Shown here: positions 4,490 to 6,937 of the stretch, piece after piece
Numbering within the stretch: the first letter of the stretch is position 1
How the letters are laid out: every line of letters starts with the position of its first letter
Assembly (NCBI GenBank): GCA_022508895.1
Contig: JAFLUH010000008.1
Location: 14,825-47,133, forward strand
Reading direction: 5' to 3'
DNA length: 32,309 nucleotides
From: Oscillospiraceae bacterium
GTDB taxonomy: Bacteria > Bacillota > Clostridia > Oscillospirales > Ruminococcaceae
Translations under genes and position numbers: made by a program
Notes under the pieces: model-generated
Databases searched by the model: none
Told to the model about the DNA's origin: nothing
The model's input: the letters and a program-made list of their open reading frames with translations, nothing else

Positions 4490-5098
4490 TTAGTCCGGTT
4501 TGTACTTGCCGTAAACGCCGACGGCGCTTCCGTTGCCGTCATCATAAGCATAGGCGTCGTCAAAGCCGTCCACTGCGCCGATTATGACGGAGGAACCGTC
4601 GGGTGCGGCGGGTACGGTTGAGCTTGTGTTGATGTAAATAACGCCGTTGACGGCGGAATTGTTTACGGAAACGAGAAATGCGCAATTGTCGGGAAGAGCG
4701 ACCGCCAGACTGTCACACATTCTCTCTGCCGCCCGCTTTTCGCCTTTGTTGCCGATTCCGGTAGCGTCCTGAGCAACACCGTTCTGACTGATGGTAGCCA
4801 TCGCTTTCTCGGTGGCGTCGTAGTAGAGGGTTATGCTGAGCTCGCCGTTTTCCCTTACGCCCTCGATCAGGGTGATGTTTATGGCGTCTACCTGATTGCC
4901 GTCGGCAAGAGCGTTGTTGGCGCTGTCGGCAACGGTGCGTGCAGTGTCCTGAAGGGTAACGTAGCTCGCCTGCGCAGCGTAGCGCGCGATAAGAGGGATA
5001 AGTATTGCGGTGAGTATGGCGATGATGGCGATGACTACGATAAGCTCTACTAAGGTAAATCCTTTTTTGGCTTTTAGGCTGCGTATTATGTTTAACAT
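4490..5098 (-). CDS. Type IV major-pilin-like prepilin (paralogue 2)
   Basis: A class III signal sequence ends KAKKG13, followed by the N-methylated Phe14 and the hydrophobic helix FTLVELIVVIAIIAILTA, with the conserved Glu at +5 (E18). Cleavage and methylation would be by the PilD encoded at 9964-10710. The 202-residue length is normal for a pilin. It is clearly paralogous to the pilin at 6266-6868: both have PLIARY and ANNA in the helix and a late VDGFD motif. Unlike that gene it uses ATA, TTA and CTA codons freely, so it is probably less expressed. AGGAGAG precedes ATG 5098. A consensus promoter (5161-5189) and its own terminator (4453-4480) suggest a single-gene unit. It could be an alternative subunit rather than the main pilus protein. 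Confidence 0.9.
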   Translation of the reverse strand: MLNIIRSLKAKKGFTLVELIVVIAIIAILTAILIPLIARYAAQASYVTLQDTARTVADSANNALADGNQVDAINITLIEGVRENGELSITLYYDATEKAMATISQNGVAQDATGIGNKGEKRAAERMCDSLAVALPDNCAFLVSVNNSAVNGVIYINTSSTVPAAPDGSSVIIGAVDGFDDAYAYDDGNGSAVGVYGKYKPD

Positions 5099-5160
5099 TT
5101 TTTCTCTCCTGTAAGGATATGTATGACGGCAAACCCTTGGGAAAACCTTTCTCCGTTTTT

Positions 5161-5189
5161 ATTATAGCACACGAAGCGGCGTGTGTCAA
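5161..5189 (-). promoter_or_regulatory. Consensus sigma-A promoter for the pilin gene at 4490-5098
   Basis: On the minus strand: TTGACA (complement of 5184-5189), 17-base spacer, TATAAT (5161-5166) preceded by TGTGC. Both hexamers are perfect. Confidence 0.85.
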
Positions 5190-5205
5190 TGCTAAGCTTG
5201 TTCGC

Positions 5206-5234
5206 TTGCCCACTGTCGAAAAAAGTGGTATACT
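5206..5234 (+). promoter_or_regulatory. Promoter of the 34-codon hydrophobic peptide gene
   Basis: -35 TTGCCC (5206-5211), 17-base spacer, extended -10 TGGTATACT with TATACT at 5229-5234. It is divergent from the pilin promoter at 5161-5189. Confidence 0.75.
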
Positions 5235-5240
5235 GATATT

Positions 5241-5262
5241 GTCGGTTCCACCATACTCCGAC
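5241..5262 (+). promoter_or_regulatory. 5'-leader hairpin next to the peptide's ribosome binding site
   Basis: GTCGG (5241-5245) pairs with CCGAC (5258-5262). It would lie at the very 5' end of the transcript and directly before the strong ribosome binding site GGAGGAGG (5264-5271). Fst-type toxin mRNAs carry such a 5' stem-loop that limits translation. The role here is inferred. Confidence 0.5.
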
Positions 5263-5278
5263 AGGAGGAGGTGAGGAT

Positions 5279-5383
5279 ATGGCTCGCTACATATTAAGTT
5301 TTGTGCTGTCTGTTGCAGGGCGCATGGTCGGCTACTATATGTGTCGATTGCTTGACAGACTGCACGGAGCCGGCAAAAAGTAG
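5279..5383 (+). CDS. 34-residue hydrophobic peptide, candidate Fst-like type I toxin
   Basis: The ORF runs ATG 5279 to TAG 5381-5383, too short for usual gene finders. A near-perfect Shine-Dalgarno (GGAGGAGG at 5264) supports the start. The peptide begins MARYILSFVLSVAG and has one membrane-spanning stretch (residues ~4-25, with an unusual Arg15 inside), then a charged tail with a LLDR segment, ending in GKK. Fst/TxpA-type toxins have this form: one helix, then a charged tail. Its unit is complete: promoter 5206-5234, leader hairpin, terminator 5390-5420. An antisense RNA is driven convergently from 5461-5489. No sequence homology to a named toxin can be claimed by eye. Alternatives are a small membrane peptide acting on the pilus machinery or a bacteriocin-like peptide. 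The ORF is well supported; the toxin role rests on the layout. Confidence 0.7.
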   Translation: MARYILSFVLSVAGRMVGYYMCRLLDRLHGAGKK

Positions 5384-5384
5384 T

Positions 5385-5455
5385 CAAAACCCCCGGGAAT
5401 GCACCTCCCGGGGGTTTTTTGTGATGGTATGACTCGCTACTTAGAATCTTTCCGT
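5385..5455 (-). ncRNA. Predicted ~70-nt antisense RNA, candidate antitoxin
   Basis: A consensus promoter (5461-5489) faces the peptide gene. The predicted start near 5455 and the shared terminator (5390-5414 stem, T residues to about 5386) define an RNA of about 70 nt with no ORF. It overlaps the 3' end of the peptide mRNA and contains the complement of the direct repeat 5428-5443. Size and layout resemble the ~66-nt RNA II antitoxin of par pAD1. Start and end are predicted only. Confidence 0.65.
5390..5420. terminator. Bidirectional terminator shared by the convergent peptide mRNA and antisense RNA
   Basis: A nine-base stem CCCCCGGGA (5390-5398) pairs with TCCCGGGGG (5406-5414). Six T follow on the plus strand (5415-5420) and TTTT on the minus strand (complement of 5386-5389). 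Confidence 0.9.
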
Positions 5456-5460
5456 TAGCT

Positions 5461-5489
5461 ATTATAGCACAAAAGCTTATCTTTGTCAA
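5461..5489 (-). promoter_or_regulatory. Consensus promoter of the antisense RNA
   Basis: On the minus strand: TTGACA (complement of 5484-5489), 17-base spacer, TATAAT (5461-5466), with TG in the extended -10 position. Both hexamers are perfect, making it one of the strongest promoters in the window. If transcription passed the terminator it could also feed the pilin gene at 4490-5098. Confidence 0.85.
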
Positions 5490-5520
5490 CACTTGAGAGA
5501 AAAACCTCATTTTCCCATCA

Positions 5521-6186
5521 CTACGGCAGTATGAACGTGTTCTTCCCGCTCTGCGCCAGCTCCTCGGGCCATGCGCCTGCATAGCGGGCGTCGCCGCCGT
5601 CGCCCAGAACGCATTCGGCGCTGAAAAGCTTGCTCCTTGCGTCGGCAAAGACGGAGTCGAATACCTCACCGTCAGTCTTTGCCTCCACGAAATAGGTGCT
5701 GACTACACGGTACTTGCTGTCTATAACGGCAAAGTATACGCCGCTTCTCTCGTTGCTTATCAGCATTTTGCGCAGGGAGGTGGCAAACTCCTCGTATGCT
5801 TTGTAGGCGTGGGTGTTGGCAAGCTCCACCTTGTCGTCGGTGTCGTCAACGTCCTCCAGCCATGTGGGAGTGGTTGCGGTGAGAGTGCTGATGCTGTCGC
5901 TGTAGGACATATAGAGCTGTACGCCGGTGTAGTCCGTCTTGTTCCGGTTCACATGGGCGCAGACAAGGGTGTAATCCCCTTTCAGCTCGGTATTCGCCAG
6001 CTTCTCGTCCACCATCAGCTCCTGCACGTTGGAATAGAAGGAGCGCGCGTATTCTCTGACCTCGTTTTTGCGGGCGTCGGTGGTGGAAAGCATGGGTATA
6101 AGTATAGCAAGCATAATAGCCATCAGTGCTATCACCACTATCAGCTCCACCATGGTGAAGCCTTTTCTGTTCAGAAGCTTTTTCAC
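5521..6186 (-). CDS. Type IV pilin-like protein, divergent from the two major-pilin paralogues
   Basis: A prepilin with leader MKKLLNRKG9 and helix FTMVELIVVIALMAIMLAIL, with Glu at +5 (E14). After the helix (PMLSTTDARKNEVREYARSFYSN) the 221-residue protein differs from the two major-pilin paralogues on either side, so it is probably an accessory subunit. It contains two cysteines (CAHV, ECVLG) that could form a disulphide. The start is GTG 6184-6186, with AGGAGG eight bases upstream; no ATG is near. It follows the major pilin gene by ~80 bases, with a stem-loop in between but no clear terminator, so the two may share a promoter at 6909-6937 with reduced read-through. Its stop is followed by the antisense-RNA promoter at 5461-5489. 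Confidence 0.85.
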   Translation of the reverse strand: MKKLLNRKGFTMVELIVVIALMAIMLAILIPMLSTTDARKNEVREYARSFYSNVQELMVDEKLANTELKGDYTLVCAHVNRNKTDYTGVQLYMSYSDSISTLTATTPTWLEDVDDTDDKVELANTHAYKAYEEFATSLRKMLISNERSGVYFAVIDSKYRVVSTYFVEAKTDGEVFDSVFADARSKLFSAECVLGDGGDARYAGAWPEELAQSGKNTFILP

Positions 6187-6265: not shown

Positions 6266-6868
6266 TCAGGTTTTACCAGGACCGTCAACGCCGTCGCCAA
6301 GGTAGTCGCCGGATACGCCGATAGCGGCACCGGTCTTGCTGCCGGATGCGTAAGCACTGTCAAAGCCGTCAACCTCATGGATGGAAGCAACGCCGGTAGC
6401 GGGTGTGTTTGCGTGGTCGGTGGTGTAAACAACGCCTGCAACTGCGGAAGCCTTAACCTTGATGAAGAAGGAAGCGCCATCGGGCAGAGTGCTGTACAGG
6501 GATTCCCAAAGCTTCTGTGCTGCTCTGGTGTTGCCGTCATTGCTGTAGGTCTGGTTGGGATCCGAGTTAACGGTTACTGCATCGGAGCCGGTACCTATGA
6601 CAATGGTGAGGGTAGTGCCTGTCTTGTTGCCGGTGATCTGAGTGGTGTTAACAACACCCTTCTGGTTCGCATCACTCATTGCATTGTTAGCTGCATTTGA
6701 GACGGTGCTTGCGGCTTCCTGAAGAGTTGTGTACTGAGCCTGAGCGGAGTAACGTGCGATCAGAGGCACGATAACAGCAGTCAGAATCGCAATGATTGCG
6801 ATAACTACGATCAACTCAACGAGGGTGAAGCCCTTTTTGTTCTTGAGTTTCTGGATCATTTTAATCAT
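6266..6868 (-). CDS. pilA: Type IV major pilin (paralogue 1, probably the main subunit)
   Basis: A prepilin leader MIKMIQKLKNKKG13 is followed by FTLVELIVVIAIIAILTA with Glu at +5 (E18). The mature protein is small and rich in Ala, Thr, Ser and Gly, with VDGFDSAYA near the end, as in its paralogue at 4490-5098. Codon use differs sharply from its neighbours: ATC/ATT instead of ATA for Ile, GCT/GCA for Ala and CGT for Arg, which suggests selection for high expression. AGGAGGG lies eight bases before ATG 6868, and a perfect TTGACA-17-TATAAT promoter lies at 6909-6937. PilD would cut after Gly13, and the subunit would be assembled by PilB, PilC and PilMNO. The symbol pilA is used for the role; naming varies between species. 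Confidence 0.9.
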   Translation of the reverse strand: MIKMIQKLKNKKGFTLVELIVVIAIIAILTAVIVPLIARYSAQAQYTTLQEAASTVSNAANNAMSDANQKGVVNTTQITGNKTGTTLTIVIGTGSDAVTVNSDPNQTYSNDGNTRAAQKLWESLYSTLPDGASFFIKVKASAVAGVVYTTDHANTPATGVASIHEVDGFDSAYASGSKTGAAIGVSGDYLGDGVDGPGKT

Positions 6869-6908: not shown

Positions 6909-6937
6909 ATTATAGCACACTAAAGCGTATCTGTCAA
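6909..6937 (-). promoter_or_regulatory. Consensus promoter of the major pilin gene
   Basis: On the minus strand: TTGACA (complement of 6932-6937), 17-base spacer ending TGTGC, TATAAT (6909-6914). It is the same design as the promoters at 5161-5189 and 5461-5489. Confidence 0.9.

Follow-up and report, generated by a model that had tools for sequence, protein, structure and literature searches.

A candidate chromosomal type I toxin-antitoxin module with par-like architecture between pilin genes of an Oscillospiraceae bacterium

What is the role of a 34-codon plus-strand reading frame that sits between two minus-strand pilin-like genes (4490-5098 and 5521-6186)? The question arises from a 32,309-nt stretch of DNA (hereafter the window) in the 2.37-Mb draft genome of an Oscillospiraceae bacterium, where a terminator starts 2 nt past the stop codon of this frame and a minus-strand consensus promoter lies farther on. 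A first-pass annotation, made from the letters alone, read the arrangement as a relative of the par locus of plasmid pAD1, which encodes the toxin Fst. Our analysis supports this reading. Judged from sequence, the locus is very probably a chromosomal type I toxin-antitoxin module working like par of pAD1 (Table 1), and the module is most likely a divergent clade of the par/Fst family.

Table 1. Features of the candidate module, in window coordinates
Feature	Position	Strand	Details
Candidate type I toxin-antitoxin module	5206-5489	both	between pilin genes
Toxin mRNA promoter	5206-5234	+	TTGCCC-17-TATACT, extended -10 (TG), 9/12; inferred start ~5241
5' arm of long-range helix	5239-5249	+	TTGTCGGTTCC; pairs 11/11 (including G-U) with 5366-5376; compare upstream helix of par
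Stem pairing Shine-Dalgarno (SD) bases	5250-5272	+	ACC/GGU and CUCC/GGAG; predicted; compare 5'-SL of par
Direct repeat, copy a	5271-5293	+	from end of SD region through start codon into first codons; putative target of antisense RNA
Toxin-like ORF	5279-5383	+	34 aa, MARYILSFVLSVAGRMVGYYMCRLLDRLHGAGKK; ATG start; SD 6/6 to AGGAGG; coding-type divergence in homologues
3' arm of long-range helix	5366-5376	+	GGAGCCGGCAA; inside last codons
Predicted antisense antitoxin RNA	5385-5455	-	~70 nt; inferred ends
Shared bidirectional intrinsic terminator	5386-5418	both	13-nt arms 5386-5398/5406-5418, fully complementary
Direct repeat, copy b	5421-5443		read by predicted antisense RNA
Antitoxin promoter	5489-5461	-	TTGACA-17-TATAAT, extended -10 (TG), 12/12

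The components named at first pass were largely borne out. The hydrophobic frame and its strong ribosome-binding site were confirmed, and across 101 aligned homologous segments divergence at codon positions 1, 2 and 3 was 0.385, 0.178 and 0.532, as expected of coding sequence. The extended -10 promoter claimed for the peptide was found upstream, with a weak -35 (4/6), as was the convergent promoter at full consensus. The hexamers of the latter are not special on their own, since pilin genes are preceded by two further 12/12 minus-strand sites (5189 and 6937); promoter-like sites between 4000 and 7000 numbered 8 vs 2.4 ± 1.6 in shuffles. The single bidirectional terminator, placed at 5390-5420, was recovered with its complementary arms slightly farther upstream, and the direct repeat described as 5278-5293 and 5428-5443 (14/16 identical) proved correct and extends over the full copies in Table 1 at 19/23 identity. 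An RNA starting on the minus strand near 5454 would therefore contain the whole terminator and 23 nt of which 19 are complementary to the start region of the message. This antisense RNA (72 nt as folded) gave a z of -4.6, and the duplex prediction suggested at first pass, between the antisense RNA and the mRNA start region, came to -34.2 kcal/mol. As a side observation, minus-strand TTGACA-17-TATAAT promoters with a TG occur three times in the window (5161-5189, 5461-5489 and 6909-6937), and the 12-mer TATTATAGCACA is common to the first two.

The accessible text of a recent review defines par elements by convergent promoters, a bidirectional terminator, direct repeats in the start region, an SD-covering stem and a sequestered 5' end (Weaver 2020, PMC7472228). 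All of these are present here. The convergent promoters and the one bidirectional terminator are found as sequence, also in homologues; the repeats lie in the toxin start region (DRa) and inside the predicted antisense RNA (DRb); and both the stem covering the SD (5'-SL) and the sequestration of the extreme 5' end of the mRNA (5'-UH) are found as predictions. The one element missing is the U-turn (YUNR) in the terminator loop, which reads AUGCACC; it was found in 20 of 140 units of the clade, and the same text describes some par homologues that lack it (PMC7472228). Nine plasmid Fst loci, fetched by a search with the pAD1 peptide, were run through the same script and had repeat scores of 18-21 in seven cases and of 10 and 5 in the other two. 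The 5' end paired with bases just after the stop codon in five of the eight that were folded (L183, L184, L185, L187 and L189), the promoter chosen by the script being doubtful in the other three. Convergent promoters, shared terminator, repeats and SD stem are features in which par/Fst of pAD1 (PDB 2kv5) and its plasmid homologues are like the module. At Fst loci (L182, L183, L184, L185, L187 and L189), two Rfam families filed as Enterococcus sRNAs coincide with the two units, RefB11 (+) with the toxin message and RefA9 (-) with the antisense unit.

The architecture is shared by relatives that were chosen without regard to it, as homologues were collected by peptide sequence alone and scored for architecture only afterwards. 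From the fetched loci, 88 units were extracted, of which 4 were incomplete and 84 were scored; the first set of 83 leaves out one with a profile score of 10. A second set holds 57 units from searches of the order, class and phylum, with 2 incomplete and some same-family genomes included; the two sets were de-duplicated only by identical core. Controls were small ORFs with a good SD taken from the fetched loci but outside the units; after removal of every place with a family-profile score of at least 9, duplicates included, 136 were left. Earlier control sets (19/135 with three features, 17/144 with all four) had been rejected as too loose. With thresholds of at least 9 for promoter scores, at least 20 for the terminator hairpin score and a repeat above all 100 shuffles, sense promoters were found in 71/83 and 46/57 units (6/136 controls) and terminator hairpins in 76/83 and 53/57 (24/136 controls). 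The repeat and the antisense promoter, on whose conservation the first-pass reading had been staked, were kept in 65/83 and 48/57 units (4/136 controls) and in 75/83 and 54/57 units (19/136 controls), respectively. All four tests were passed by 52/83 and 40/57 units vs 0/136 controls; the three control ORFs with three features were fetched Fst loci.

The relation between the repeats is also informative. Among the 84 scored units, 65 passed looser filters and 56 of these were non-redundant. In this subset the repeat score was 16.1 for cognate copies vs 6.9 ± 1.6 for non-cognate ones, with 52/56 above 95% of non-cognates, and the cognate duplex between antisense RNA and mRNA exceeded 95% of non-cognates in 53/56. 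The repeat thus drifts between loci while its copies match within a locus, as would follow from a need for the copy-b transcript to base-pair with copy a of the message.

The message itself has a predicted fold of -82.5 kcal/mol (z -6.5), equalled by none of 200 shuffles. The leader hairpin proposed at 5241-5262 stands as a possible helix; in the whole-message fold, however, the partner of the 5' end is 5366-5376, and a smaller stem holds the SD bases. Over 110 units, the first 14 nt paired with the tail at a mean probability of 0.47 (above 0.4 in 78), whereas shuffled bodies averaged 0.21, and the SD was paired at a mean probability of 0.74 (above 0.7 in 70/110), a figure that stands without a shuffled control. 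In both sets, the 5' end of the message formed better helices with the sequence around its own stop codon (the tail) than with that of permuted partners, at z 12.4 for the first set (n = 50) and z 9.2 for the second (n = 39), and in neither did any of 5000 permutations do as well; pairing with a mid-ORF control was flat (z 0.0 and -1.4). RNAduplex over the whole leader was weak for end-to-end pairing (10/56 above 95%), and the ungapped-helix permutation test was used instead.

Taken with the par model, these features suggest how the module may work. A plus-strand message of about 180 nt would encode a single-helix membrane peptide. With its 5' end anchored to sequence immediately ahead of the terminator and its SD held in a small stem, the message would be poorly translated while free. 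The strong convergent promoter would yield an antisense RNA of some 70 nt that shares the terminator and carries the complement of the repeat, such that pairing could begin at the terminator and then span the ribosome-binding site and start codon. Should the locus be lost or transcription stop, the antisense RNA would presumably decay first, and the peptide would then be made and might harm the membrane. A more elaborate reading, in which the message is a two-state switch uniting the logic of par and of hok, we consider unlikely. On that reading the 5' arm would have two alternative partners: the tail near the stop codon, giving the closed form together with the SD stem, or a local segment immediately upstream of the SD, whose pairing would compete with the SD stem. 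Trimming of the 3' end, or antisense binding there, would shift the RNA between states. The 5241-5262 hairpin would be the local alternative state in the window, and local pairing across units was modestly above permuted (z 3.7, n = 86, 2/5000), compared with a z of 17.4 for tail pairing under the same test. Against a switch, window RNA shortened at its 3' end is still predicted to have its SD paired.

The window peptide matched 10/71 genomes of the genus at E ≤ 0.01, and a 51-row profile later matched at least two more (G032 and G037). In the family sample, a 12-row profile matched 48/397 genomes and 25/122 genera at E ≤ 0.01, weak rows included; some of these weak rows lie inside long frames and are probably chance. 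The third peptide match (L003), inside a long unrelated frame, was dropped. At E ≤ 0.001 the 51-row profile matched 27/346 genomes of the order, 20/342 of the class and 12/299 of the phylum, samples that partly overlap and include the window's own genome. One single-contig genome had nine matches, five within 12 kb. A 14-kb piece of a single-contig genome (L053) holds five module copies within 12 kb, and other relatives also have multiple matches per genome. Many co-resident copies with differing repeats are a natural set for testing the evolution of antisense specificity.

Mobile elements carry relatives as well. At E ≤ 1, a composite query for the family matched 12 phage and 78 plasmid records; the latter were from Streptococcus (34), Enterococcus (15), uncultured sources (8), Ligilactobacillus (7), Aerococcus (5) and others, and 63 of them were below 60% identity. 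The gene table used, which describes itself as incomplete, shows no gene beneath any of the 30 plasmid matches listed. The repeat was kept in all 12 plasmid and phage loci fetched, above 300 shuffles (weakest score 12 vs a shuffled maximum of 10), and sense promoters were weak in several of them. The module also occurs in a rodent-faeces record that is filed under Inoviridae (L181:1501-1587), where an opposite-strand gene is annotated over part of it. The occurrence of relatives on plasmids of several genera, combined with the par architecture, points to an addiction-type origin. It argues against the reading that the small membrane peptide is regulatory and non-toxic, with its synthesis under antisense control. 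We hold that reading to be improbable, although in the accessible text of the par review the family has no verified function other than plasmid stabilisation by its founding member (PMC7472228).

Does a par-like module imply an Fst-like peptide? The first-pass annotation found the peptide not recognisably Fst, and this holds for the window peptide, which has L in place of the family W (CRLLDR) and R in place of G, but not for most clade members, which end Fst-like in (K/R)WLD. The string (K/R/E)W(L/I)x is present in 110 of 140 distinct clade peptides. Most members are spaced as S-x3-(G/S/R/N)-x7-K-W-L-D and Fst as P-x3-G-x7-x-(V/W)-L-D; the spacing from W is the same, and the S/P/D of the clade 13 residues before W is like the P of Fst. 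In contrast, the A, P, V and G of APxxVG, invariant in nine aligned Fst rows, are mostly absent in the clade, and Fst tails differ in being mostly acidic. By hhalign, the clade profile matched Fst at 94.6% (E 6.7e-8, one-residue gap), with 0/200 full column shuffles and 2/200 helix-only shuffles as good; the small gaps placed in the helix (1 residue by hhalign, 4 by BLASTP) leave the register ambiguous.

Existing models recognise the clade poorly. NCBIfam NF033608 matched all nine Fst rows vs 4/51 clade members (best E 0.013), and PF13955 matched 1/51 (E 0.078) and nothing in the window genome at E ≤ 0.1. Unrelated Pfam models match about as weakly as those for Fst and Ldr (DUF2158, 10/51, best E 0.015; ATPase_gene1, 8/51, best E 0.0051), and PHROG 738, for which no function is given, matched 32/51 (best E 3.4e-5). 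The Pfam and NCBIfam matches among the 51 members scanned were all weak, PADLOC matched none of the 51, and the window peptide had no match to a Pfam or NCBIfam model. A PDB profile search gave no match; searches of the literature with peptide strings gave no relevant match. The group is large, and most of its modules in bacterial chromosomes and plasmids carry no label. In the accessible parts of the literature, a 2019 review of type I systems in Clostridia gives Fst-like sequences in two Clostridium species and feature-based candidates (PMC6563280), and Weaver 2020 has one sentence on Clostridia (PMC7472228).

The nearest accepted relative of the clade is the pneumococcal SpF66/F67 locus (SpF66, Rfam RF02442, F66/srn502; neighbour F67/srn503). 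The printed RF02442 consensus translates to MSLILELVLTIIADVIAGIILYFVCKWLDGKE, 32 aa of the form DxxxG...CKWLD, which is like the clade in its CKWLD ending and in having D 13 residues before W where the clade has S. It is unlike the clade in reading DxxxG rather than SxxxG/S/R/N and in being four residues longer, the extra residues being placed inside the helix by BLASTP. The SpF66 model matched 7/11 clade loci at E ≤ 0.1, each time over the module, and missed L002, L010, L014 and L118. Two loci, on a Streptococcus and an Aerococcus plasmid (L174 and L179), were over threshold; at L174:953-1184 and L179:1462-1665 the SpF66 match covers a toxin-type ORF with a facing antisense unit. Among genus genomes, 13/71 matched at E ≤ 0.1, one over the cut-off, and these places overlap 6 of the 12 genus peptide places, with a short match beside a seventh. 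In a genome with no peptide match at E ≤ 0.01, two adjoining SpF66-type matches were seen (G019:C19:18158-18647), one over the Rfam cut-off. Within the window genome the model found the second copy of the module only; it was absent among matches up to E 10 for 5100-5560, and no Rfam family reached its gathering score in the window. A control search also matched Bacillus subtilis, below the cut-off.

What is accessible of the pneumococcal literature agrees with this placement. F66 gives a Northern signal (PMC3395615), M18 (= F67) is reportedly annotated as an Fst-family type I toxin in PneumoBrowse2 (PMC12323649), and a DxxxG clade in S. pneumoniae is mentioned by Weaver (PMC7472228). The SpF66 matches, the DxxxG/CKWLD consensus and the F67 annotation together place the clade within the par/Fst kind. 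Conversely, the clade results suggest that SpF66, an Rfam 'sRNA' whose mutant is reported to have a fitness of 0 in the nasopharynx (PMC3395615), is a toxin message rather than non-coding.

Other antisense-controlled systems are less close. hok/sok and ldr/rdl resemble the module in their antisense control, and the hok message is closed at its ends; neither system is known to have a shared terminator plus direct repeats. The Ldr_toxin model (PF13940) matched 4/51 clade members weakly (best E 0.0041), and ldr/rdl regulation is described, in the accessible review text, as hok-like and distinct from Fst (PMC7472228). The type I toxins of Clostridioides difficile are also small membrane toxins with a convergent antisense RNA, but differ in their length of 30-56 aa and in the long complementary region described in the accessible text; the main text of both papers does not use the term 'direct repeat' (PMC6563280, PMC7699646). 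Their model, NF047374, weakly matched 19/51 members (best E 7.5e-4), two of which reached 18.5 and 21.3 of the 60-bit cut-off, with no match in the window genome at E ≤ 0.01 and none of 60 relatives over the cut-off.

By itself, the window peptide fails two family sequence signatures: the W conserved where the membrane helix gives way to the charged tail (a V in Fst of pAD1), and the helix motif P/D/S/T-xxx-G(C), for which it reads SVAGR (SxxxR) 13 residues before the W position. The string (P/D/S/T)xxx(G/C) occurs anywhere in 45/83 first-set peptides. The lost W, the R at the last motif position, the weak sense -35 and the small number of genus genomes with a module would all suit a degenerate copy that no longer works. 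We give this only a slim chance, as the frame is intact and the SD (6/6), antisense promoter (12/12), repeat (19/23), 11-bp end-to-end helix and fold (z -6.5) are all retained; moreover, R at the last motif position is also seen in other clade members, and two relatives in genome G066 with the similar ending RLLD or RILD keep both promoters and the terminator.

The preferred reading, a working par-like module, does not involve the pilus. The middle pilin was matched in nine other genus genomes, and the second pilin adjoins it in the same arrangement in six of these (L161, L162, L163, L165, L167 and L169). Neither a third pilin nor the module was seen in the nine stretches, three of which are incomplete; the best family-profile score there was 4.8 vs 51.7 in the window's own stretch. 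The module therefore looks like a lineage-specific gain between pilin genes and no part of pilus function. That the pilin gene downstream (4490-5098) has a leader or attenuator made up of the minus-strand promoter and terminator, with the plus-strand ORF incidental, is highly improbable: although promoter, terminator and pilin gene are in line and the promoter resembles that of the pilin gene, this gene has its own 12/12 promoter (5189-5161) beyond the terminator, the plasmid stretches fetched with relatives in them have no annotated pilin gene, and homologues of the ORF show coding divergence. The weak Rfam histidine- and leucine-leader matches that would favour such a leader fall below the cut-off, and these families were set aside, the matches being read as terminator-driven.

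For pilin 4490-5098, on the far side of the module, none of the nine genus relatives showed a counterpart next to the middle pilin. This gene is about 45% identical to the pilin-like gene at 6266-6868, the two lying on either side of the middle pilin. The second copy of the module in the window genome (L002) lies on another contig, beside what looks, judged from its ORF by eye, like a decarboxylase subunit.
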